Origin: a virus
Length of the DNA stretch: 55,721 nt
Reading direction: 5' to 3' (one strand)
IMG/VR virus record: IMGVR_UViG_3300017730_000010
Coordinates: 1 to 55,721 of that record
The position numbers and the translations under genes are program-made. Every line of letters starts with the position of its first letter. Within the stretch, counting starts at the first letter, position 1. The notes under the pieces are model-generated. The model was not told the origin of the DNA and made no database searches. It was given only the letters and a program-made list of their open reading frames with translations. This document shows positions 8,290 to 36,100 of this stretch, in pieces.

Positions 8290-8579
8290 TGAGAATTAAA
8301 TATTGTAAATCATGCGGTCATAAAAACCAGTTCATAGGGCTGGAACCAAAGTTTTGTTCAAGTTGCGGGGCGAGTTTTCAAAAAGGAACTTCTCAAGTTA
8401 CAAAATCTAAAATTGCTAATAGACAAAAACTTAACGAGGATGAAACAGATGTTGATTTCGTTCCTAATATAGCCAGTCTACAATACAGCGTATCTCCATT
8501 TGAAAAGAAGACATTCAAAATGGAAGAAATGTTCGATCTTGAAGATGATGGCGGAAACTCCGAAAAGAAAAAGAGGTAG
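8289..8579 (+). CDS. Zinc-ribbon protein (96 aa)
   Basis: The N-terminal module MRIKYCKSCGHKNQF...FCSSCGASF has two CxxC knuckles (residues 6/9 and 23/26), a treble-clef or ribbon zinc site. A low-complexity polar tail follows. The start overlaps the preceding stop (TAATG type). Such ribbons commonly contact RNA polymerase or nucleic acid; the adjacency to a sigma-like gene, which it overlaps by about 30 nt, fits a transcription role but is inference. Confidence 0.75.
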   Translation: MRIKYCKSCGHKNQFIGLEPKFCSSCGASFQKGTSQVTKSKIANRQKLNEDETDVDFVPNIASLQYSVSPFEKKTFKMEEMFDLEDDGGNSEKKKR

Positions 8580-9279
8580 ACCAAAGAAGGTAAAATTTGA
8601 GGATAAATATGAAATTATTGACACTCAAATTGCAAAAAGGAAAGGTAAGTGGTTTCTTAAGGCTATATCCTGGATAAGCTGGGAAGATGTTGGGCAAATA
8701 ATAAGATCTCATATATATAATAAATGGCACCTGTGGGATCAAAAAAGACCGTTAGAACCTTGGTTAAATAGAATCATATCTAATCAGATAAAAAATATAT
8801 TAAGAAACCATTATGGTAATTTTATTAGACCTTGCGCTCAATGCCCTTTCAACGCCTCTGGATCTATTGACAACATAAATGATGCTAATTTCTGTAGTTG
8901 GACTAAAACTGGCAAGCAAGATAGTTCTTGTCCTTTATTCTTGAAATGGGAAAAGACTAAAAAAAGCTCCTTCCAAATAAACATGGCTTCAAGTATAGAT
9001 GCTAATGAAAATATAAACGTTGGACTCTGTAAACACTTTGACATTGACCATTCTAAAAATAAATTAAATAAATTAATGAAAGAAAATTTAACAGAAAAAC
9101 AATATCATATATATGAGATGCTATATATAAAAGATTTAGATATTACCGAGGCTGCTGAAAAATTGGGTTACAAAAGCAATGAGAAAGGCCGTAAGGCGGG
9201 GTACAAGCAAATAAAGAACTTTGAAAAATTATTTAAAGATACTGCTAAAAAATTAATATCCGAACACGACATAGTATGA
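8548..9279 (+). CDS. Sigma-70-like factor with AT-hook and Cys-rich insert
   Basis: Numbered from ATG 8548 (243 aa; ATG 8545 is equally possible). Residues 6-15 (KRKRGRPKKV) form an AT-hook-like motif. Residues 42-90 (ISWEDVGQIIRSHIYNKWHL, then PWLNRIISNQIKNILRNHY) look like sigma region 2. Residues 181-225 (LTEKQYHIYEMLYIKDLDIT, then EAAEKLGYKS) look like a region 4 helix-turn-helix. Between them is an insert with Cys96, 99, 116, 128 and 161, suggesting a metal site. The ORF overlaps both neighbours slightly. A likely role is redirecting host RNA polymerase to phage promoters. Confidence 0.7.
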   Translation: MAETPKRKRGRPKKVKFEDKYEIIDTQIAKRKGKWFLKAISWISWEDVGQIIRSHIYNKWHLWDQKRPLEPWLNRIISNQIKNILRNHYGNFIRPCAQCPFNASGSIDNINDANFCSWTKTGKQDSSCPLFLKWEKTKKSSFQINMASSIDANENINVGLCKHFDIDHSKNKLNKLMKENLTEKQYHIYEMLYIKDLDITEAAEKLGYKSNEKGRKAGYKQIKNFEKLFKDTAKKLISEHDIV

Positions 9280-10325: not shown

Positions 10326-11011
10326 AACTAAAACACATCCATAAATCAGCTAGTAGTCTCGGACAAAGGTATTATACCATGTCTGCGGCGATAAACGTTT
10401 TCACGCAGTCCTACGGGCATAATATCGTACAAATTGGGTCCGAACCCAGGAACTCGGCGCACTCTAATTTTGATTTGTTTGATTTTTATGCTGATTTAGT
10501 AAAAGATTGTAATAAAGTTTCTTATAGTATATTTCATGAGTCTGATAACATAAGTCAACAAAAGAGAGAGCAACATTTAAACAGTATAATATATAATAAG
10601 TATAATGATGAATCTAATAGAATAAGAATAAGAAATATAAAAGATAGTAATATATATGAAAAGACAGATAATATAGATTTGTTAATATTAAATGATATAT
10701 ATTTTCCCATAGAAGAACTTACCACCAGGGTTTGCCCGAGCGCAGATTACTTATCTGGTAGAAACATACTGTATTCGATAACGGACGCTGAGATGAATCA
10801 TTCTTACGGTGAAATCATCAGTCCTTCAAAAGAAAGGTGTTTGTATGAGTACAAGCTATTCAAAAATAAACTTAGTAGATCCTCAGTCGTAATTCTAGAA
10901 GGAAACGATTATCCTGGCGGCGCACAAACTTCCCTTGTTAAAAAACAACTGGGAAGTGATGGATTTATCTGTTTATTAGACTTACAACAATCAGTGTGGA
11001 TAAAACGGTAA
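10322..11011 (+). CDS. Putative class I SAM-dependent methyltransferase
   Basis: 229 residues. After an N-terminal helix, HNIVQIGSEPRNSAHSNFDL resembles motif I (hydrophobic strand then a Gly-containing loop, E/D). DLLILNDIYFP resembles the motif II strand, and SSVVILEGNDYPGGAQTSLV with FICLLDLQQSVWIKR matches the C-terminal beta-hairpin of such folds. The usual GxGxG loop is degenerate, so activity is uncertain. The first part (10322-10460) and the end are less AT-rich than the middle. It overlaps the next gene by 16 nt. Confidence 0.45.
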   Translation: MKLKHIHKSASSLGQRYYTMSAAINVFTQSYGHNIVQIGSEPRNSAHSNFDLFDFYADLVKDCNKVSYSIFHESDNISQQKREQHLNSIIYNKYNDESNRIRIRNIKDSNIYEKTDNIDLLILNDIYFPIEELTTRVCPSADYLSGRNILYSITDAEMNHSYGEIISPSKERCLYEYKLFKNKLSRSSVVILEGNDYPGGAQTSLVKKQLGSDGFICLLDLQQSVWIKR

Positions 11012-11937
11012 ATTTCAATTGTAAGATATGTGGTGCTGAGTTTGATTCTGAACGATCACTACATGCACATATTAAGGCTCATAAAATATTATTATCAGAA
11101 TATTATATTACATACTATCCTAGATATAATTTATATACAAATGAGTTAATTCCTTTTAAGAACAAAGATCAATATTTTTCTACTTATTTTTCTAATAGTA
11201 TTGAAATGGAAAAGTGGGCGGCGACAGCCGACGACGAACATGTACAACAAATATTACTTGATATATTAAATAAAAGAATAATTAGTAAGAATTTACAATA
11301 TGCGCCGAATCATTTAGAATTAATGCTACTTGAGCTTCCTACAATAGAGATGTATAAAACATATTTCGGTTCATATAATGAAGCCTGTCGCAGGCTTCAG
11401 GTTGAGCCGTTACTAAATAAAAGTATAAAAAGTAAATTTTTAAACTTCGATAAAAATTTAAAGGACATGCAGATTATGATAGACACTAGAGAGCAAACTC
11501 CCTTAAAATTCAAGAACAGTAAACCTCATAAATTAGATTTTGGTGATTATACAGCAGCAGGAGGATACTATAATAAAACATATGTGGATAGAAAAAGCGA
11601 AACGGACTTTAAATCAACAATGACTGTGGGGTATGATAGATTTAGAAAAGAATTGCAAAGAGCTAAAGAATTCGACTCATTCTTATACATTGTTACAGAA
11701 AGCTCTATTGATAAAATAATAAACAATAATAAGTATGGTCCGCATCGATCAAACTTAACATTTGTATGGCATCAGATGAGAATGTTATCACATGACTTCG
11801 CTAGGAACTGTCAATTTATATTTTCTGGAGGAAGGAACTGGTCGCAAGAGTTAATTCCAACATTACTTTATGCAGGTAGAGAAATGTGGCATTCCGATGT
11901 ACAATATTATATAGACAAAAGAATTTTAAAATTATGA
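10996..11937 (+). CDS. C2H2 zinc finger + ERCC4-type nuclease
   Basis: GTG start at 10996. Residues 9-29 form a classic finger (C9-x2-C12-x12-H25-x3-H29). The C-terminal half holds an ERCC4/XPF nuclease signature: IDTRE (162-166), FGDY (182-185) and VDRKSETDF (197-205), where DRK replaces the usual ERK. ERCC4 nucleases cut branched or flap DNA. Its 3' end overlaps the terminase start (ATGA), so expression is coupled to packaging. A role in trimming or resolving replicative DNA before packaging is plausible. The middle part (Tyr-rich, then repeated short helices) is unassigned. Confidence 0.75.
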   Translation: MDKTVNFNCKICGAEFDSERSLHAHIKAHKILLSEYYITYYPRYNLYTNELIPFKNKDQYFSTYFSNSIEMEKWAATADDEHVQQILLDILNKRIISKNLQYAPNHLELMLLELPTIEMYKTYFGSYNEACRRLQVEPLLNKSIKSKFLNFDKNLKDMQIMIDTREQTPLKFKNSKPHKLDFGDYTAAGGYYNKTYVDRKSETDFKSTMTVGYDRFRKELQRAKEFDSFLYIVTESSIDKIINNNKYGPHRSNLTFVWHQMRMLSHDFARNCQFIFSGGRNWSQELIPTLLYAGREMWHSDVQYYIDKRILKL

Positions 11938-16768: not shown

Positions 16769-18397
16769 ATGAAATTTAAATATAAAACTAAATTTTTGAA
16801 TGAAGTACAAGCTTCTGCAGAAAATGTAAAAGATGGAAAGTTTGTATCCCAAGCTTCATTGGAACAATTAAAGTCTTTAGTTCCAGAAGATATTGATTTC
16901 GAAAAAAATATTGATTTGATTGGTGTAGCTTTTAATGCAGCAGTAATTAATCAATTCAATAAAAATCATGATGGTATAGACACAAAAACTGCGCTAGCTA
17001 TTAAAGATTATTTTATTCACAAGCCCACTAATATAGAACATAATAAAAAGAAAATTGTAGGGCATATTGTATCATCTGGATTTTCTAGAATGTATAATGA
17101 TGAATTAATAAGTTCTGTCGGCGAAGAAATAAATCAACCTTTTAATTTGGCTCTTGGAGCTGTAGTTTATTCTGCAGCTAATAAAGAATTTGCCGAAATG
17201 GTTTTAAGATCAGTTGATCCAGAAGATGAAATGCATCAAGTGGTATCTGCGAGTTGGGAATTAGGATTTAATGAATATGTAATTGCAGCTGGAAGCAGAA
17301 GCTTGGATGAAGCGGAAATTATTTCAGACCCTAAGCATGTAGAAGAATTATCTCAGTATTTAAAAGCTTTCGACGGAGAAGGTAAATTAAATGACGGTAC
17401 TGAAGTATATAGATTGGTGGTTGGAGATGTCTATCCATTAGGCATAGGCTTTACTGCAAATCCTGCGGCTGACGTAAAAGGAATATACGTATTTGACGAT
17501 AAAAAAAAAGAAGAATCTGAGGACGATTCTTTGAACGCTGAAGAAAAAATACAAGTCAATAATAAAATTTATTTTTCGAAAAATGAAAAAAATATTTCAC
17601 AAAATGGAATTTTAACTGTAAATGAATCTATAAACAATATTTCTATTATGGAAAAACAAGAACTACTAGAAGACTTTAAAGCTATCCTTGAAGAAAAAAT
17701 GCCTGGTCATGATTTCTCTCAAGAGACTGTAGCTAATGTTGGTCGTGTTATTGGAGATGCTATCAAATCCAAAAACGAACAATATGAAAAAGAACTTCTT
17801 GCTCTTGAGGAAGAGCGTCAAAAATTCGCAGAAGCTGAAGAAGGTATTAAGGCTGATCTTGAAGATCTTAAGTCTAAGCTTGAAGCTGCTGAGGGTCAAG
17901 TCGCCACTCTGAGTGAGGAAATCGATTCTCGCAAAAGCGAAGACGCTTTTAACGCTCGCATGGAAGATGTTGATGCGACTTATGATCTTTCAGAAGAAGA
18001 TCGCAAGGTTTTAGCCTCCGAAGTTGAAGCTATTAATCTTGACGAAGCTTCCTTTGAGGAGTATAAGTCAAAACTTTCCGTTATGTGGGCTCATAAAAGT
18101 AAGGAATACTTAGCCGAACAAGAAAAAGCTTTTGAAGAAAAGCTTGAGGCTGAACTCCAAAAACGCTTGCAAGGCATGGAAACATCTGAAGCTTCTGACG
18201 CTTCCGACACTTCCGAAGAAACTGAGACTGAAGAATCCGAAGCTTCTGAAGAAGTTGAAGAGGTTCTCGAAAACGCTGAAACTGAAGAAGAAGAAGTTAT
18301 TGCTAATAATAACACAACTTCCGCAGTTGAAGAAGTTTCTTTAAGAGAAAAATTCGCAGAAGCTTTTGCGAAAGAAAATATTTCAATTAAATTCTAA
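16769..18397 (+). CDS. Prohead maturation protease fused to scaffold
   Basis: 542 residues. The N-terminal ~240 aa look like a prohead protease: PTNIEHNKKKIVGHIV gives the catalytic His (His91), and VVSASWELGF the Ser (160-162), followed by IGFTANPAADVKGIYVFDD. Residues 294 to the end are a Glu/Lys-rich coiled coil ending in an acidic low-complexity region, typical of scaffold or core proteins. An acidic linker joins the two. Arginine codons are all AGA before residue 294 and mostly CGT/CGC after it, so the scaffold half looks like a separately tuned, highly expressed product. Confidence 0.8.
   Translation: MKFKYKTKFLNEVQASAENVKDGKFVSQASLEQLKSLVPEDIDFEKNIDLIGVAFNAAVINQFNKNHDGIDTKTALAIKDYFIHKPTNIEHNKKKIVGHIVSSGFSRMYNDELISSVGEEINQPFNLALGAVVYSAANKEFAEMVLRSVDPEDEMHQVVSASWELGFNEYVIAAGSRSLDEAEIISDPKHVEELSQYLKAFDGEGKLNDGTEVYRLVVGDVYPLGIGFTANPAADVKGIYVFDDKKKEESEDDSLNAEEKIQVNNKIYFSKNEKNISQNGILTVNESINNISIMEKQELLEDFKAILEEKMPGHDFSQETVANVGRVIGDAIKSKNEQYEKELLALEEERQKFAEAEEGIKADLEDLKSKLEAAEGQVATLSEEIDSRKSEDAFNARMEDVDATYDLSEEDRKVLASEVEAINLDEASFEEYKSKLSVMWAHKSKEYLAEQEKAFEEKLEAELQKRLQGMETSEASDASDTSEETETEESEASEEVEEVLENAETEEEEVIANNNTTSAVEEVSLREKFAEAFAKENISIKF
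17629..17636 (+). promoter_or_regulatory. Possible internal late promoter box, TATAAACA
   Basis: TATAAACA lies 11 nt before the internal ATG at 17648; the identical octamer precedes the tail tube start at 23523. It may drive separate transcription of the scaffold half. Confidence 0.3.
17648..18397 (+). CDS. Possible separately translated scaffold protein
   Basis: An in-frame ATG at 17648 begins MEKQELLEDFKAILEEKMPG, the first residue of the coiled-coil half. Codon use switches exactly here from the AGA-type to the CGT/CGC-type shared with decoration, capsid and tube genes, and a TATAAACA box lies 11 nt upstream. Lambda C/Nu3 and similar systems use the same nested arrangement. There is no Shine-Dalgarno sequence before this ATG, so the call is an inference. 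Confidence 0.45.
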   Translation: MEKQELLEDFKAILEEKMPGHDFSQETVANVGRVIGDAIKSKNEQYEKELLALEEERQKFAEAEEGIKADLEDLKSKLEAAEGQVATLSEEIDSRKSEDAFNARMEDVDATYDLSEEDRKVLASEVEAINLDEASFEEYKSKLSVMWAHKSKEYLAEQEKAFEEKLEAELQKRLQGMETSEASDASDTSEETETEESEASEEVEEVLENAETEEEEVIANNNTTSAVEEVSLREKFAEAFAKENISIKF

Positions 18398-25240: not shown

Positions 25241-26122
25241 ATGAAAATTGACGAGAAAAAAATATTGTATTCTTTCGAGGTAAATGTCGAGAAAGAAGTT
25301 GAAGAAACAGTCGAGAAAAAGAAAAAACGCAAGAATAAAGAGACTGGTAAAATGGATGTTATTACAACTAAAGAAACAACTATGGTAAAAAAAGATGTTC
25401 CTTTTAATATTGTAATCAAGAAACCTACTAGAACACAACTTGAGGACGGAGACATGTTTTATAGCTTAGAGTTGAATAAGTTTATTAAAATGGGTCTTTT
25501 AACTAAAGCTATGCTTGCTAAGCAGTATGGAACTCAGGGTGGAGTTTGGACAGAGAAAGAACAAAAGCTTTACGCTGAATTGATATACAAAATGCATCAG
25601 AAGCAATTGGAGATCCAGCAGTTCTCTATTCTTGGCGAAAATGGAAAGCTATCTGATAGACAGAAGTTGAAACTTGATATTGCTATGAGAGAAATGGCTG
25701 AATTGAAAAAAGAATTAACTGAATACGAAATGGTTCAAAATTCCTTGTTTGATCACACCGCAGATATTAAGGCTAGAAACAGAACTATTATGTGGTATAT
25801 TCTGCATCTAACTCATTTTGCCGAAGGTGAAGATGAAGATGCAATATTAGAAGAGATGTTTGAAGGTGATGATTTTGAAGACAGGTTCTCTCTATACGAA
25901 GATAAAGAAGAGGGTGGAGATGAAGTATATGAAAGAGCTATTGACAAAATTTCTTCTATAGTGACTATTTGGTACATCAGCGGAAATCAAGAAAAAGAAA
26001 GTCTAGAAGAGTTTATGGAACAAATGAAAAAAGACTCTGAAGATTTAGAAAACGATCTTGAGGAAGATTTAGAGGAAGATTTAGAGGAAGAGTCTGAAGA
26101 GGCTGAAACTCAAAATGCCTGA
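25241..26122 (+). CDS. Tail assembly chaperone-like protein (293 aa)
   Basis: The N-terminal ~70 residues are a Lys/Glu-rich strand/helix region, with a helical core (MHQKQLEIQQFSILGENGKL). The last ~80 residues are very acidic and include a perfect 12-bp tandem repeat, GAGGAAGATTTA (26060-26091). Its 3' end overlaps gene 26115-27125 by 8 nt in another frame. The pair resembles the G/GT chaperone position upstream of a tape measure, although I see no convincing slippery heptamer at the junction. Confidence 0.5.
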   Translation: MKIDEKKILYSFEVNVEKEVEETVEKKKKRKNKETGKMDVITTKETTMVKKDVPFNIVIKKPTRTQLEDGDMFYSLELNKFIKMGLLTKAMLAKQYGTQGGVWTEKEQKLYAELIYKMHQKQLEIQQFSILGENGKLSDRQKLKLDIAMREMAELKKELTEYEMVQNSLFDHTADIKARNRTIMWYILHLTHFAEGEDEDAILEEMFEGDDFEDRFSLYEDKEEGGDEVYERAIDKISSIVTIWYISGNQEKESLEEFMEQMKKDSEDLENDLEEDLEEDLEEESEEAETQNA

Positions 26123-27125
26123 TGATCTGCCAGATAAAAAACTTCTAGAAAAAATATTTAGAGACATAAGGCTAGGTTTCTCTTCTTTTATCTATGAGGG
26201 AAAGACTTGTTTTGTTAAACACGCTTCTCACCATCAAACAGATATCCTTAACCAGTCTTACGAAGAATACTATAATAAGGCAACCTCAAAAGGGGTAATG
26301 ACCGAAAAAGAACTTCTTGAAACTTTAGAGAAACAAGAAGTGTGGAGTTCACAAGATGAAAACCTTTTCGAGAAGAAAGAAATTGAGATGGAAAATCTCA
26401 AAAAAACTTCTGCAAATTTAATTGTAAAAGCTCAAAGAAATTCTTTTGAAAAAAGAATAAAAGATCTTGAAGAAACTTTATTAAAGCACAGAAATAAAAG
26501 AAACTCTTTAGTTAAGAATACTGCTGAAGAATACGCCTCCAAGAGGGCTAATGAAATTTTTATGTTTAATTCTTTATTTAAAGATAGAGAATTTAAAGAA
26601 ATGTTTTTTTCTGAAGAAGAGTTTGATCATTTAAATAAAATTGAACTCAGCGAAGTTTATATTGAATATAATAAATCAATAGAAATATTTAGTCAAGAAA
26701 ATATAAGACAGCTGTCAATAGAATCTTTTTTTACAAGTTTATTTAATTTATTTGATAAAGATGTTTCTAATTTTTATGGCAAGAAAGTATTTGATTTAAG
26801 TTATTACCAAATCAATCTATTAAACTATGGAAAGTTATTTCTTAAAATATTTGAAAATAAAGAGATCCCAAAGGGAATACAAAGAGACGCTGGAAAAATA
26901 TTAGAATATTTAGAAGAGTCGGAGACAAAGAAAAAGGCCGCTAAAACCGCAAGTGAAAAAGCTCAATCTGCAGCTGGGTTTTCCTATAAGGGCGCGACTA
27001 GAGAAGATCTTGAAGAAGCGGGAATCAATACAAAAGGTGCTATGGACATACATGACTTGGCCAAGGAAGAAGGCAAAGATGGCGAATTAGATATGGAAGA
27101 TTTAATGAAAATCCATAAAAAATAG
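26115..27125 (+). CDS. Tail assembly protein (336 aa, putative)
   Basis: Helical, Lys/Glu-rich protein starting MPDDLPDKKLLEKIFRDIRL inside the end of the preceding gene. A coiled-coil core (KDLEETLLKHRNKRNSLVKN) and an aromatic-rich helical bundle follow, and the tail (KAAKTASEKAQSAAGFSYKG) is Ala/Lys-rich. The location just before the tape measure suggests the second chaperone component or a tape measure-binding protein. It could also be a separate minor tail protein. Confidence 0.45.
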   Translation: MPDDLPDKKLLEKIFRDIRLGFSSFIYEGKTCFVKHASHHQTDILNQSYEEYYNKATSKGVMTEKELLETLEKQEVWSSQDENLFEKKEIEMENLKKTSANLIVKAQRNSFEKRIKDLEETLLKHRNKRNSLVKNTAEEYASKRANEIFMFNSLFKDREFKEMFFSEEEFDHLNKIELSEVYIEYNKSIEIFSQENIRQLSIESFFTSLFNLFDKDVSNFYGKKVFDLSYYQINLLNYGKLFLKIFENKEIPKGIQRDAGKILEYLEESETKKKAAKTASEKAQSAAGFSYKGATREDLEEAGINTKGAMDIHDLAKEEGKDGELDMEDLMKIHKK

Positions 27126-27158: not shown

Positions 27159-30100
27159 ATGAACCCCATTGTAAACATACCAACAGGTGCGAGTGGCTAT
27201 AGGCAAAGTATAGTCTCTCAAGCTCAGGCTGCTCAAAGAACTGTTAATAATATGCAGATGAGTCCAAGGTTGAACCCAAATGGATTTGTACAACCTTTAG
27301 GTAAAATTACTAATGCAGCCAGTGAGTTTCAAAAGTCAATGGATGCTTCTGCCGCTCGTGTATTTGCGTTTGGAGCAGCCGTAGGAGTTATTAATGGAAT
27401 TAGTGACGCTTTTAAAACTTTAGTGACATCAGCTGTAGAAGTAGAAAAGTCTCTTAAAGATATTCAAGTTGTTATGGAAGCTACTGATTCTGCAATGCAA
27501 AAATTTGGAGATGGTTTATTTGACGTAGCTAGAAATACGGCAACTAGTTTTGATTTGGTTGCAGCTTCAGCAACAGAGTTGGCCAGGCAAGGCTTAAGTG
27601 CGGAAGAAACTTTAGCAAGAGTTAACTCAGCACTTATTCTTAGCAGGCTATCTGGGTTAGACACAGTAAAGTCAACAGAAACTTTAACAGCAGCAATCAA
27701 CTCTTTTAATAAAGAGGGTATAACGCATGAACAAATAGTTAATAGAATGGCTAATGTAGATGCAGCTTTTGCTGTCTCATCTGCAGACTTAGCTGAAGCC
27801 ATATCAAGAGCGGGCGCTGTCGCTCAATCTTCTGGAGTTTCGTTTAATCAATTGTCAGCTATTGTAACAGCGGTTCAACAAAGAACTGCTCGTGGGGGAT
27901 CTGTTATTGGTAATGGATTTAAAAGTATATTTACAAGAATTAAGAGGAGTGGAGTGAGAGAAGCTCTTGAAGAAATAGGCGTCACAACCAAAGAAATGGA
28001 TGGAAGTTTTAGATCTTCCATAGATATTATAAAAGATTACGCAAAAGTTTATCAAACATTAACAGATACTCAAAAAGCTTATACATCAGAACAAATAGCT
28101 GGAGTCTTCCAAATACAAAATTTACAAGCTTTAATACAAGATTTGAATAGTGGGTATTCAGTATTTAATAAAGCTTTATCAGTTGCTAACAATACAACAG
28201 ATCAAGCGACACAAAGAAATAAAGCGTTGAACGAAACCTTAGATGCAATATTTAAATCAACAACTTTAAGCGTAAAAGAGCTCTCAGCATCACTTGGGTC
28301 TTTAGCTTTTGAGGATAGCTTTAAAAGTATATTAAAATTTGTAGGTAATTTAGCTGATAGCTTAAATGGATTATTCGATGAAGAAACTGGTAGCAGTTTA
28401 GCTAAAAATTTAGTTAAAGGTATAGGAGCTTGGATAACTGGGCCTGGCGCAGTCTTACTAGGAGCAGCGTTTTTCAAAATTTTCTCACTAGTTGGGAAGT
28501 TTGCTAAAGACGCTTTCAAAGATCTTTTAGGTATAAATATGGAAGCAAAACGCCAGCAGTCATTGCAGGCTGCTATAGGTTCTATATTGATGAAAAACGA
28601 ATCTATATATAAACAAATATTAGCAGCTAGTGGAAACTCCGCTAGGCAAGAACAAATTATTTTAAATATAGTAAAACAAGAAACTGCAGAAAGAGTTAAA
28701 CAAGAAGCTTTAATAAAAAGAATAGCTTCATCTAGCGCATTAGTGGGGGTTGGAGCTGGAGATACTGGTTTTGTGCCGATGGGAAAGAGAGCTTCCAGAA
28801 AACGAGGTAAGCAAACTTTAGGTTTAGCAGGGGGATATTTACCTTCAATAAATAAAGAACACCATTCAATATCAAAGGGAGTTGGAGGAGCCAGAAGAGG
28901 TGATAGACCAGTTGTTCTTAAAAATCATTCTATGGGGGGTGGAAAAAAACAGACTGTTGTAGCTCATACTGGAGAGTGGAGGGTTCCTAATTTTGGTGGT
29001 AGCGGGGGAGACGCTATATTTAATAGATCTATGGTTAAAAAATTTGGGCTGCCAAGTGGCGCAAAAAAGATAACTGCGGCAGATGGTTTAATACCTAATT
29101 TTGCTAAAGGAACTCAAAAAGTAACAGCCACGGCAGCGCAATTAGGGTGGAAGGAAGTTGTTGGTAGAGGTAGGCCAAATGAAATAGGAAAAAGATCTGA
29201 TAGGATAGATTCGTTTACGGGAAGAATTAAACTTGAAAGATTAAATAAAACGAGTAGTCAAATAGGTACAATGGCTAATCAGACTTTATCTGGAAAGGGG
29301 TCTGTAAAATCTAGATCACTACCATTTTTTATACCAAAGGGTGACAAATATATATTAAACCCGCAGTATAAAGACGCTAACGACGCAATTAAACAAAAAT
29401 TAACAAATCAATTTGGAAAAAAAGCATTGGCGAGCGGAACAGGTTTGAATTTAAAAAATCAAATCCAAACACTTTCTGCGGGCTTTGATAAAAGAAAATC
29501 TGCAATAAAATTTAAAAGTTTAAATACTTTATTAAAAGGTTTACATGGAGAAAAACTAGCTATATCTCATTTAAAGAATAAAGGGGTAAAAGCAGAGGCA
29601 ATTGAAAGTAGTGGATTTTTCGACTTAAAAACATCTAGGAGAAAATTCGAAGTTAAGTCTGGCAAAAAAATAAACAACTTTGAAATATTGAAGAAAGCTG
29701 CAAGCGAATTTCTTATGTCAAGCGGAGGAGATAAAGAATCTGGATATCCGTTTAAAAATAAAATAGCTGAAAGGATAGACGTATCAAGGAAAGCTGGATT
29801 AGGAAGATTTATAAACTTAGTTTTACCAAAAGGGTCTCCATCAGAAAATGTATTTGATAAAAAAGGACAGCCTGTAATACAGGCTCCAAGATCAGCAGCT
29901 TCTGGATTTATTCCTAATTTTGCCAGAAGATTTACAGATGTTAAGTCTTGGGGCGGAGCTAGGTCCAAAAAACTTAAAGACACTGGCTCGTATTTAGAAT
30001 ATGAAGGTGATCATATATCTCACATAGCGTCACAGAAGAAGGGTGACGCTAATTTATTATTTGATAAGTTCATGAAACAAAAAGGTACTGTTACCAGTGG

Positions 30101-33100
30101 AGGTTTAACTCAAAATAGAAGTTTTAAAGAAAATTCTAAATCTAACTTTGAGGATTTAATGTACGCTTTCCCTCAGTTGCAATATAGATTAAAAAAAGGA
30201 TTACAGACCACAGGAAGATATGTTGGGGCAGATGGAGACACTTTTAGATTTCAATCTCTCATAGGTTTAAAAGAGCAAATTAATAAAAAATATCGAAGAG
30301 GAGAATTCAGAGATATGTTAGGGAATAAAAGCGGCCCTCCAGGAATGGGTTCGATGGATATTCAAGATTTAGTTACATCTAGAGTTTCAGGCGCTGGAGA
30401 TAATATATATAAAAATTACGCAGAAGGTCTTGTCCCAAACTTTGCCGCAGGAGTACTGACATCAAAAGGGTTTTTTACTCCTCAAAAAATTAGAAGACTG
30501 AGAGACGGAGAGTTCTCAAAAACAGAGAGTGGTGATCGAATTTATTTAAGTCAATTTAGTAAGCAGGATCAAGATAAAATTACTGGATTTGATGCGCAAT
30601 TTTCTAATAAAAATGTAGCTAAGGCTGCAGCCGCAAGTAAAGCAAAGAAAGGGGCTATGCCTACTATAGACGCATCTAGGCAAGCTACAATGCTTGTTGC
30701 GACGAATAATTTAAGAAAAAAAGTAGACTCAACTTATAAACATAAGGGAACTGATTTTAGGTTAAAATATAGGGTGGAAGGTTTAAAGCCATCTAGGTTA
30801 AAAGGTTCAGAGGCTAAGCTTAGAGAAAGAATGCAAACTTCAATGTTGAGAGAATCAAGTTCTTTCGCAAAACAATTGTCTGGGGCGGGATCATTTGGTG
30901 CTAATACCCCAAGCGTTACACAACTTTCAAATGCTGGAGCTCCAGGGGCTGCGGCGGGAACAGTGTTTGAAAGCGCACTCAAAGCAGTAGGTAAAAATAA
31001 ATTATTTACAAAAAACAATGCTGGTTTTGATATTGGTGGTTATCCTGATGGAAGCTTGCAAAATTTATTTGGTTATTACACTCCATTTGCTGACGCAAAG
31101 ATAGGGTTAACTCCAGACACCAAAAGAGATTTTCATGGTAAGCTAATGGGACTGCCTACTAGTGGGGCAGCAATAAACGCTGCAAACAAAAAGAAACAGG
31201 GTCAGATGGCTATGACTACTAGAGCTAAATATGGAGCTCCTAGTTTTGCTAGCGGTTTCATACCTAATCTAGCTAAGTTTAAACCAAAAGACTTTGGCTT
31301 GAGTGACGACAGAGCTAATCAACTACAAAGTTATGTTGACAAAAGAAAAAGTGAGGGTCGTCCATTTAAATTTGAGAATTTGCTAGGCGGAAGTAAAATT
31401 AAAGCTCAAGGTAGAATAAACCTTGTTACAAAAGAGTTGGGCAAAGACAAAAAAATAACTGCTACTCGATTAAAGAAAGAAGAAATTCAAAAATCAAAAG
31501 ATTTTGCCACAAAGAGGGCTCAAGCTGGAATAAACACCCTTAGGTCTGTGAGTGGCGCAGGTGGCGCGTTTGCCGTAACTAAAGCAAACGCAAATTCGAC
31601 GGCAATCACTGGTTTAGAAGCGCGCGTTTCAAGACTAGAATCCTTACAAGCAAGAAGCAATGTTAATAATTTTGCTGGAGGTTTCGTGCCTAACTTTGCT
31701 GCTCCCGAACTCCCCTTTAACTCAGACACAATAATTAGAAAAGCTGTAACTCAAAATGTAGGAGGGATAAATAGCGACGGATTCACGATGGCTAAAGATG
31801 GAACTTTAATGTTTAATGATAGAGATTTTAATCCTGGTAATAAAAAACATCTTAATTCATTGATGAATAATAAAAAATTTAAATCTCATATTCATGATCA
31901 AATAAATAATGAATTAAGATCTATTCAAAAATACAATACTGGATTAGCTGGCATGGGTAGATCTTTTGCAGAAAAAACTGGGCTCGCTATAATTAATCCT
32001 AATTTAGCTGTTGATCAAAGTAAAATAGTACAAAGAGATTACTTGAGAGATATGGCTAATAATGTAGAGGGAGCTTCCGTTCAAACAACTAGATTTAAAA
32101 CTGGAGCAGGAGACGCTATAAAGAAAGACATTCATTATGGTGGAATGTATAAGCATGATCCGAGAGACAGGTCAAGGGTAATTTTTAACCCATCGGCTTT
32201 AGATCAATTATTTACCAAGAAAAATTATGGACAATCAAATATAGATGTGCCAACATTTATAGAAGTTGAAAGAAGAAGGAGGCAAGCTGCATCTCAGGGT
32301 GGCAAAAACAAAAGAATGAGTTTATCGCCAAAAAGAACTATGCAAACAGCTACCGACCTTATAACAGGAGGATTTAATTTCGGAGGCAGACTTATAACGG
32401 GAGGAATAAATGCGTTGGGGAATATAAAAAAAGCGGGTCGTGATAGAATAGGCAAAAGAGTTCAGTATGTAAGAGATTTGAAACAACGATTTAATCTTTC
32501 TGAAATGACCGAGGGTGGAAGAAAAAGATTTTCAGCAATTAAAGAATCTGCTAGGAGTAAAGCAAGAAATTTAGGTGGCACTTTAAAAGGTGGGCTTGAG
32601 AAATTAAAACCATCATTGGGTGGCGTTACGTCTAATCCATATGAAACAGCTTACGAAAATGAAGAAAGATTAGCTCGAGAAAACCCAGTAGCGCAAGCTG
32701 AAGAAGCTTTTCTTGAAAAAGAAAACGAAAGGTTTAATAAAAGAAATAATTTTGCAAGAAGATTTAAGATTGGAAAATATAAATTTAAGAAACGCTTAAG
32801 GGGAAGAATGACCAAGGTTTCTGATAGGTTGAATAGTTTCGGCACTGGAGCTTCTGATTTTATAGACAGAAAAAAAACTAAAGTTAGTGGCATGCTTAAA
32901 GGTTTTGGCCCTGGAGTAACTGGGCTTATAGACAAAGGGGGAACTCTATTTAGTAATATGCTAAAGGGTTTGGGGTCTGGAACTTCTGGACTAGTAAACA
33001 AAGGTAAAGATAAAATTTCGTCAATAATAGATGCTGCTGGATCCCAGGTAAACGAAAAAAGATTCAACCCTTCAGATTTAACTAAAAAAAGCGTAAGTGC

Positions 33101-36100
33101 TTTATGGAAAAGAATTACAGGTGGAATAAAACTAGGTTTTATAAATCCAGACACCTTAAAAATACTTAGTGCATTTAGAGGTTTAGGTTCACCTGAAATT
33201 TCTGCACTTAAGATTAAAGAGGGTATAACAAAAAAAGGTCAGATAATTAGAAGAAACGCTTCTGAAAAATGGAAATTTCTACAAGAAAATATAGGTAAAG
33301 CTTTGGGCGTTGGTGGAGAAAAACTAAATCAAGCTCTTAAGGCTGGAAAATTAAGAACCCAAAACTTTTTTACCGCAGCTGGTGAATTTAAACCTAATTT
33401 GGGCGGAGAAAAAATTAAAGAACTAGCTAAAGCTTTAGGCGTCAGAGTTCAGGATTTAAGAAAAAAAATAAAAGACGCCAGAGATTCAAGAAGGCAGTCT
33501 GCACAGAAAAAAGATCCATTCTTAAAACCAGGAGCGATAACAGAAAGATATAATAAAACAAGAACCGCGATAGGAGATTTATTTAATAGAGGGGTAGCCT
33601 TGAAAAATAGAGCTGTTGAAGGAGGAATTAATTTAGGAAAGAGGGGGTTAGAAAAAGCAAGCAATTTAAGTAAGATGGGGTTAGCGGGGGTACAGAGCGG
33701 CGGAAGAGCTGGAGTGAAATTTGCCAAAGGTAGAGGTGGAATTGCTGTGGGTGGGGCTACAGCCATTGCTGGATTAGGTTACGCACTGTCTGGGATGTTT
33801 GAGTCGGACGGAAGCTCTTCTCAAAAAAGAAGCAATGCTGAGTTAAAACAATTAACTAAATACGATTTTCAAAACGCAAAACAAAAATCATTAACAAAAA
33901 ATGGCTCCGTTGTCACTTATAGTGTTGGACCTAATGGAACAATATTAAAAGTCTCTACCGATAAAAGTGGTAAGGTTAAAACTGAGAAATTAACACAAAA
34001 AAACCCTGAGTTCCATACTGCTGCAAAATCAATGGGAGTCACAACCGATAAAGGGGGCTTGCTTGACAACACTGAAAGAAGAAATGGTAGAATTTTTGTT
34101 AATGGCTCAGAGATGAGTAATGCTGAATTTAATCAATTAAGAAAAGAAGAGCTTTATGGCCCAGATTTTGAAGTTATGGGTATAGGAGCTGGAGGTTTAG
34201 GGATTGGAGCTGGATTAGGATTGGTTGGAGCTTTAGCTCTAGTGGCTAATAAACAGCATAAAGAAAGAGTTTCTAAAGAAATTGATGCAATAGAAAAATC
34301 TACCATGACTGATGAGCAAAAAAGCTTAAAGAAAAGAATTGCTTTGTTAGATCCAGTTGATAGAAATTCTTTTGAAAAATATAAAAATAATTTAAAATTA
34401 GAATTAACAGAAAAAAGAAAACAACTGAACGTGGCTAAGTCAGACCCAAATGTTAAAAATGCTCTAAACTTTCAAAAATCTGGGGCAGCTGGGCCAAGCT
34501 TACCTATTCCAGATGACGTTAAAAATTTAATAGATGATATAGCTCTTTTAGATGATAGTTCTAAAAATCCTGAAAAGAGTTTTCTTGCAGATGATGGCGG
34601 CGCTAAAATAGAGCGAAGGTCTAGGGCAGAAGCAGTATTAAAAAAGAGAAAAGAAAAAAGAATTAATAGAGGTAATCCTTCTGCGCTAAGACGTTTTGGA
34701 AGAAGAATGCCGCTTATAGGATCTAGGTTTTCTGACGGTTTCATTCCCAACTTTAATAGATTAGCTGTTGCAGCTCAACAAAGAAGAACTCAACAATCAT
34801 ATTTAAGTAAAAAAGACATTAAAATTCTTGAAAGTAAAAGAGATGATATTCTTTCGATGGGTGTTAATATAGGAACTAGGCCAATAACTTCAACAAACAT
34901 GCCCTTTGGTAAAAGACTCAGCGGCGCAGAACTTGATCAGTTATCTGCAAATTTGAGATCAATGAATATAGATAAAGGTTTAATTGGTAGAGTTATTAAT
35001 AGCCATAAGATGACACCATCTGAAATTAATCGCGCAAAGTTACAAGACTTTATATATAAAAATAAACAAGCTAGAGATGTAGGGGGGAAGCTAGCTAATG
35101 TTAAAGCCTACAAACCAATGAATGAAGAAAGGTATGATCCATTTAGAACTTCTAGGCAAAATAAAACTGCTTCTGGTGGACTTATTCCTAATTTTGCTCC
35201 AAGATGGAGGCGTCAGAAAAAATTAAATAAACCGAGAAAACCAGGAGAAGGAAAAATTTTAAAAGATAAAGAGAAAGAAATGCAACTTCTTGCAGACAGT
35301 TATGCGAGGGGTGAAATAAGCACTCGAAAAATGAGAGAGCTTAAAGAGAAAATTGATCCTTTTGGAGTATTAGACGATGTAATACAAGGGCTTTTCTCTG
35401 ACGGATATATTCCAAATTTTTCAAACCCATTAACTGACGCTATAGCTAGAGAATCGTCTGCATTAAGTGATAGGGGGGTTTCCCTAGGTGCAATAAGGGT
35501 TGAACAGTCAAACTCTCTTAAGAACTCAAGGAACCCATCTGGGCTTGCTGTAACAAATACCTTTGATGAACCAGCTGGAGTTCAACAAGGAATAAATCGA
35601 TCTAGATCTATGGGTATAAACCCAAAGTCTCACGGGGCGGCAACAGGCTTTGTTCCTAGTTTTGCTGCAGGTATAGGTGCCAACTTGTTAAAGACTTTGA
35701 TGAACGTAAGAAACATGAAAGGGATTAAACAAACACTTGATGTTCTGGGAAAACCAGTCAAGGGGGTTAGAGATCTTGAAATGGGTCCATTGAAAAAAGG
35801 CTTTTTTAACTCAGAACAAATGAACGCGGGTATGATGGCAAGTTTTCCATTAATGATGTTAACGGAACAAATGAGAGCTTCTCAGGCCGAAGGCGGTGGA
35901 AATGTGTATACGGACATTGGGACAGAGGCTATGATGGGAGCTTCTTTTGGAGCTATGGGTGGAGTTAAGGGTGCTGCAATTGGAGCTATTGGTGGGGGCA
36001 TATATGGAGCTACAAAAGGGTTTTCTGGGGAAAGAGAGACTGCAAAAGCTTTTGCGGACGCCTTAAAAAGACAACTTGACGTAGTTGGAAAAGCTGCTGG

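Follow-up and report, generated by a model that had tools for sequence, protein, structure and literature searches.

A short peptide marks the borders of exchangeable cassettes in the tape measure proteins of an uncultured phage group

The tape measure protein (TMP) encoded in IMG/VR virus record IMGVR_UViG_3300017730_000010 (positions 1 to 55,721, the complete 55,721-nucleotide stretch analysed, referred to here as the window) carries repeated copies of a short peptide, and the same motif recurs two to eight times per tape measure in well over 200 IMG/VR contigs. We conclude that the motifs are almost certainly the borders of exchangeable cassettes. The strongest result of the analysis is the coincidence of the motifs with the points at which the identity of related tape measures breaks off. 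Over 91 pairs of related tape measures there were 101 such breakpoints, of which 77% fell no more than 5 residues, and 91% no more than 10, from a motif centre; the expectation for random positions is 5% and 10%, respectively. An earlier note on the window had proposed that the motif partitions the protein, and the breakpoints bear this out. In five worked pairs, with N-terminal flanks 83-97% identical, identity ended at one motif and restarted at the next. The tape measures of loci L086, L100, L009 and L259 have common N-termini and other modules in common, and different first cassettes; a single late cassette distinguishes L144 from L268, and L065 has three cassettes more than L288.

The spread of the motif was determined by scanning IMG/VR with back-translated patterns, which gave at least 120 matches each for GFIPNFA and GYIPNFA, and 119 for GFVPNFA. 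All counts of open reading frames (ORFs), segments and families given here rest on the matches listed in those scans. Among them are 274 motif-bearing ORFs of at least 300 amino acids (aa), that of the window included. The consensus of 685 distinct contexts is A[AS]xG[FY][IV]PN[FY]A, in which positions +1 and +2 are skewed by the search patterns and positions -3 to -1 are free of pattern constraint. Information is present only at positions -3 to +6, and nothing outside them is conserved. In ORFs whose start lies in the fetched DNA the first copy is mostly near residue 540-650. The motifs are arranged as fence-posts, one more in number than the cassettes, with one ahead of the first cassette and one behind the last. 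A set of 20 phage records (2.3 megabases) contained 76 pattern matches, forming one short single-strand cluster per genome, and no control matches. The motif is a general one.

Tape-measure-like matches also occurred in bacterial bins assigned to Flavobacteriaceae or Flavobacteriales, Verrucomicrobiales and Proteobacteria, and are probably phage contigs within those bins; a freshwater host of Flavobacterium type may be guessed from such matches. The many single matches in bacterial genomes were set aside as unrelated, being chance matches in non-phage proteins. When a collection of 50,697 records of named phages was searched with tblastn, neither the terminal module nor a relative's nuclease-like cassette was matched, and the module preceding the motifs gave chance matches only in the same collection.

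The ORF in the window was described at the outset as a tape measure of 4465 residues, and the ORF itself, the PhageMin_Tail domain and matches to several tape-measure PHROGs (E 4.6e-46 in one case) are in agreement with this. Its translation is unbroken, and it is classed as a tape measure by domain and profile match together with its location in the tail gene cluster. It contains nine copies of the form G[FLY][IV]P[NS][FL][ANS], with the glycine at residues 643, 916, 1090, 1366, 1508, 2527, 2674, 2749 and 2830. Ten motifs had originally been counted. Nine are clear, and the tenth, at residue 609, is degenerate and lies inside a conserved Gly-rich module; there are therefore nine separators, not ten. 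The consensus proposed with them, ending in A, is exact in seven copies, the other two ending in N or S. No strict motif was found in 2000 composition-preserving shuffles of this protein, and the relaxed form occurred on average 0.37 times over 500 shuffles. These figures, with the one-cluster distribution in the 20 phage records, rule out a chance origin. The strict motif was not present in frame in any other ORF of annotated size in the window.

The motif is selected as a peptide. The nine copies in the window share 12-19 of 21 nucleotides in pairwise comparison, so the difference in codons noticed earlier holds. A recent duplication of DNA as the source of the copies was rejected because their surroundings are unrelated and their codons differ. 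Across the relatives all synonymous codons are used at the motif, and for Gly, Asn and Ala their frequencies are near those of the ORF concerned. There is a mild excess of one Pro codon, and Pro codons match within genomes at 0.55 against 0.42 expected. These observations bear on the idea that it is the DNA of the motif that is maintained, as a hotspot of recombination by which cassettes spread, the peptide being a by-product. The coincidence of breakpoints with motifs and the Pro codon figure would fit such a site; the use of every synonymous codon and the divergence of the window's copies do not, since what is conserved is the reading frame and the residues. No recombinase or conserved DNA motif tied to the separator sites was seen. 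We regard the hotspot as highly improbable, and the codon evidence rules out a DNA recombination site as the sole cause.

Structure prediction placed the motifs outside the folded parts of the protein. For cassette 3, the largest of the recognisable cassettes in the window, modelled by AlphaFold2 with its family alignment, most core blocks had a predicted local distance difference test score (pLDDT) of 85-97, and the flanking motifs scored 47-71 and had no secondary structure. The terminal module gave a similar but weaker picture (pLDDT 80-89, motifs 54-66). In these two models the motifs therefore occupy low-confidence linkers, which rules out their burial in one continuous fold. Foldseek found no relative in the PDB for either model.

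A sample independent of the motif was obtained by scanning for the conserved N-terminal peptide RGGAVIGN, which identified 61 new loci, 21 of them long enough or complete. Eight of these had at least two strict motifs, four had one and nine had none, one of the nine being incomplete. No recognisable cassettes were present in L353 and L371, and only a terminal module with degenerate ends in L388 and L400, all four lacking the strict motif. In L359 and L366 the nuclease-like cassette is kept, with GFMPKFA or GHIPKFA as separators, and L385 has GGYMNAA between two cassettes that are separated by GFIPSFS in L031. L394 also keeps the nuclease-like cassette, with at best GSLPNLK at the border, and is a doubtful case. 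This apart, homologues that retain the segments also retain the separator or a variant of it at the border. Other dialects of the separator were thus seen in L359, L366 and L385 (GFMPKFA, GHIPKFA and GGNLPRYA, together with GGYMNAA), which suggests that all separators of a tape measure can change together.

Cutting the tape measures at the motifs gave 543 segments, which fall into 131 families and recur beside different neighbours, with up to eight cassettes per tape measure. A 75-residue terminal module (77 segments) usually closes the array. In an 80-sequence alignment of the commonest family G, E, D and K are invariant (E183, D203, K226) and F nearly so, in the order typical of PD-(D/E)XK nucleases, and in its AlphaFold2 model the E is on a helix and the K on a strand. 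A GNAT cassette and a HIGH nucleotidyltransferase-associated region exceeded their Pfam cut-offs (30.7 bits against 20.7, and 34.1 against 26.7); a GHKL ATPase cassette scored just under its cut-off, and an SNase match was weak and also under. Family 7 has HAD motifs I-IV (DxDxT, T, K and D), with D5, D7, T9, T69, K139 and D159 invariant in 8 sequences of about 30% identity, and had no profile match in the PDB. Family 4 has a Walker A motif, GxxGxGK[ST], with G36, G38, K39 and T/S invariant in nine sequences, and a PDB profile match to a phosphate-loop protein (E 2e-6). ART-like, zincin-like and kinase-like segments were assigned by signature only. Metallopeptidase-like HExxH occurs in 5 of the 543 segments, which rules out a cassette-borne metallopeptidase as a general processor. 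Two cassettes may be mentioned separately: a 576-residue one with a GHKL/HSP90-type ATPase region (L025:5021-6748, minus strand), and another (L049:4865-6145, minus strand) that contains both a P-loop motif and a HIGH-type nucleotidyltransferase region and is in this respect reminiscent of a bifunctional nucleotide enzyme.

It is likely that the cassettes are delivered effectors. It is unlikely that they are instead structural or envelope-penetrating domains of the tail, diversifying like other tail proteins. Many families have no enzyme signature, and peptidoglycan hydrolases are common in tape measures (TM4, PMC1796659), both as expected of such domains; against this, the GNAT, HIGH nucleotidyltransferase, HAD, P-loop and GHKL types have conserved active-site motifs, and the known families use intracellular substrates.

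The copies within one protein resemble each other more than expected. Agreement between copies of the same genome was above expectation at positions -3 (z 4.6), -2 (z 7.9), -1 (z 5.7) and +1 (z 8.7), with no excess above z 1.8 at flanking positions and a slight deficit at +4 and a few flanking positions. The copies of one protein share a genome-specific dialect, as would follow from one shared reader acting in trans; the motif is probably a tag read by a common factor. That this factor is the tail chaperone or the tube is put forward tentatively. The gene order u4-u3-u2-u1-TMP is conserved in relatives, and of 127 loci with upstream sequence u1 was present in 112 and u2 in 94; Pfam and PHROG gave no usable match for either. 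In a set of 60 non-redundant genomes, distance in dialect correlated with distances of u2 (r 0.40), u1 (r 0.32) and the tape measure N-terminus (r 0.20), and mutual correction left u2 alone correlated (partial r 0.27, n = 60).

In phage tails generally the tape measure sets the length, occupies the lumen of the tube and exits at infection. We propose, with moderate confidence in the explanation as a whole, that in these phages it would be a multi-payload carrier with docking-tag separators, in which a conserved N-terminal part is followed by a cargo region and a C-terminal part. The cargo region would consist of exchangeable cassettes, each ended by the consensus peptide, and be closed by the terminal module. 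We infer from tape-measure biology that the cassettes, many of which are enzyme-like, would be carried with the DNA to the envelope or cytoplasm of the host. The peptide would serve as a short docking tag for a single tail factor encoded by the phage, the likeliest being the u2 protein or the tube wall, and would enable the tail to treat any cassette alike and to accept a new one if correctly tagged. With some reserve, this may be stated as a tail cargo-loading code, in which a genome-specific peptide and a dedicated tail factor admit an open-ended set of injected effectors and the dialects partly separate lineages. In a stronger variant of the code the effectors would also be freed in the host by cleavage at the same peptide.

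Several points weigh against the docking-tag explanation. Delivery is deduced for phages of a group known from sequence alone. Most cassettes had no match in Pfam, and for the commonest family there was no significant Foldseek or profile match in the PDB, so that its PD-(D/E)XK call stays at the level of signature. The chaperone role of u2 is putative, being based only on position. With stricter thinning its partial r fell to 0.18 among 35 genomes (p 0.003) and, among 23, to a non-significant 0.12, the u1 and u2 distances are themselves correlated (0.9), and the partial Mantel test is known for its leniency; the correlation of u2 with dialect is weak evidence and a lead only. A proteolytic reader, moreover, would likewise yield a genome-wide dialect.

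Protease processing is accordingly the main rival. Under it the tape measure is a polyprotein, which a protease of phage or host origin would cut at the motifs, either in the virion or inside the infected cell, to free effectors. The fence-post arrangement, with both array ends included, the location of the motifs in linkers and the genome-specific dialects would all be explained, as would the strict upstream side with nothing constrained past +6, which is as seen with extended P-side recognition. We know of no protease with specificity for the separator peptide, which counts against cleavage, as do the lack of a visible protease signature in u1-u4 or in the downstream families next to the tape measure and the rarity of HExxH, the cassettes being generally without a protease of their own. 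Processing of the tape measure is, for its part, established in lambda and other phages (PMC1796659), and polyvalent proteins are thought, in the sections of PMC5512222 drawn on here, to be separated by metallopeptidases. We consider cleavage somewhat unlikely, as an account of the peptide. A role as spacer or in self-association, in which the peptide brings the parallel chains of the tape measure, three or six in number, into line at the cassette borders or insulates neighbouring folds, is quite unlikely. A hydrophobic peptide containing Gly and Pro between unrelated folds is what it would need; however, in-register self-association requires no agreement from copy to copy, and insulation alone requires no ten-residue consensus common to hundreds of phages. 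Taken with the correlation of u2, the evidence for a reader in trans leans towards docking over a protease site or a spacer.

The features of the window are given in Table 1. The only enzyme-type signatures within it are PD-(D/E)XK-like. No relative was found with the window's cargo region as the query for related loci, because its cassettes are too divergent for peptide patterns. The 1010-residue stretch between residues 1515 and 2525 of the tape measure contains no motif and no relative of it was found; it may represent several cassettes whose separators were lost.

Table 1. Tape measure, separators, cassettes and upstream genes in the window (L numbers are loci of relatives)
Feature	Position	Strand	Basis or remark
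u2, conserved, two genes upstream of tape measure; putative tail-assembly chaperone by position	25241..26122	+	best correlate of dialect
u1, conserved, directly upstream of tape measure	26115..27125	+	conservation in relatives
Tape measure protein ORF, 4465 aa	27159..40556	+	PhageMin_Tail Pfam E 2.6e-29; tape-measure PHROGs
PhageMin_Tail domain, aa 124-315	27528..28103	+	Pfam
Degenerate copy, GEWRVPNFGG region, aa 609-616	28983..29006	+	in conserved Gly-rich module preceding first separator in relatives
Separator 1, DGLIPNFA	29082..29105	+	motif search
Cassette 1, aa 650-914, PD-(D/E)XK-like by signature only (E..., FD, EVKSG)	29106..29900	+	sequence; no Pfam match
Separator 2, SGFIPNFA	29901..29924	+	motif search
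Cassette 2, aa 923-1088, family of 5, no assigned function	29925..30422	+	41% identity to L237 segment, E 5e-24
Separator 3, EGLVPNFA	30423..30446	+	motif search
Cassette 3, aa 1097-1364, commonest family (125 segments), PD-(D/E)XK-like signature	30447..31250	+	invariant G1267, E1271, D1291, K1314
Separator 4, SGFIPNLA	31251..31274	+	motif search
Cassette 4, aa 1373-1506	31275..31676	+	no relative found
Separator 5, GGFVPNFA	31677..31700	+	motif search
Long motif-free stretch, aa 1515-2525, basic, transmembrane-like segment at aa 2339-2365	31701..34733	+	between separators 5 and 6
Separator 6, DGFIPNFN	34734..34757	+	motif search
Cassette 6, aa 2534-2672	34758..35174	+	no relative found
Separator 7, GGLIPNFA	35175..35198	+	motif search
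Cassette 7, aa 2681-2747	35199..35399	+	one weak relative, L133, E 0.001
Separator 8, DGYIPNFS	35400..35423	+	motif search
Terminal module, aa 2756-2828, conserved final module of cargo region	35424..35642	+	77 segments
Separator 9, TGFVPSFA, end of cargo region	35643..35666	+	motif search

Some other ORFs of the window, all on the plus strand, were also noted. The N-terminal half of a 542-aa product (16769-18397) appears prohead-protease-like by eye (VSASWELG ... GFTANPAAD), with no Pfam match, and its C-terminal half is acidic, coiled and scaffold-like. Between this ORF and the putative portal, the ORF at 15910-16743 matches two PHROGs of unknown function (E 2e-12 and 1e-4). Weak matches to sigma-70 region 2 and UPF0122 at 8500-9279 indicate a possible phage sigma-like factor, and there is a weak C2H2 zinc-finger match at the start of the ORF at 10996-11937.

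The polymorphic toxins CdiA and Rhs have variable toxin ends, each preceded by a brief conserved peptide (VENN, DPxGL). There, as here, a short conserved peptide marks the exchange point of unrelated domains; those systems, however, have one exchangeable end and belong to bacterial secretion, whereas a tape measure is a virion protein that holds many cassettes internally, each with the peptide on either side. The closest concept is that of polyvalent proteins (Iyer, Burroughs, Anand, de Souza and Aravind 2017, PMC5512222), which in the sections drawn on here are long polypeptides made by phages, each combining several enzyme domains of unrelated kinds, and are believed to enter the host with the DNA and to act early on host defence and machinery. 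Relatives of the window's tape measure likewise combine several such domains in a single polypeptide. In contrast, fused metallopeptidases are pervasive in polyvalent proteins and HExxH is rare here, the paper makes no mention of tape measures, and the same sections contain no separator peptide. An enzyme domain within a tape measure, expected to leave the tail at infection, is known from mycobacteriophage TM4 (PMC1796659) and from Thermus phage P23-45, with its TMP-fused RNA polymerase and giant tape measure of 5002 aa (PMC10770324); theirs are one or few fixed domains, compared to as many as eight exchangeable cassettes and one shared border peptide. Sle1-type effectors of actinobacterial contractile injection systems also consist of a tape-measure-related protein with a functional domain that varies; they are packaged in the tube, and swapping that domain alters the effect. 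The sections of PMC13277306 drawn on here describe a single C-terminal variable domain in a bacterial nanomachine, and no multi-cassette array with repeated separators. Smug et al. 2023 (PMC10684548) reported mosaic signals in tape measures, for which a recent case could not be confirmed, whereas the tape measure pairs described here are clean mosaic cases. No description of the separator peptide was found in PMC full text (nothing relevant for 'IPNFA'), a search of open-licence papers in which absence is no proof.

If the explanation is correct, the tape measures of a common uncultured phage group would be modular effector carriers, and a simple sequence rule would serve to find and delimit tape-measure payloads. 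The approximately 130 cassette families, mostly unannotated, would then be candidates for proteins of early takeover or anti-defence whose domain borders are already known. The existence of dialects renders the handling of foreign folded cargo by the tail directly testable, and knowledge of them might be of use in loading chosen proteins into phage tails.

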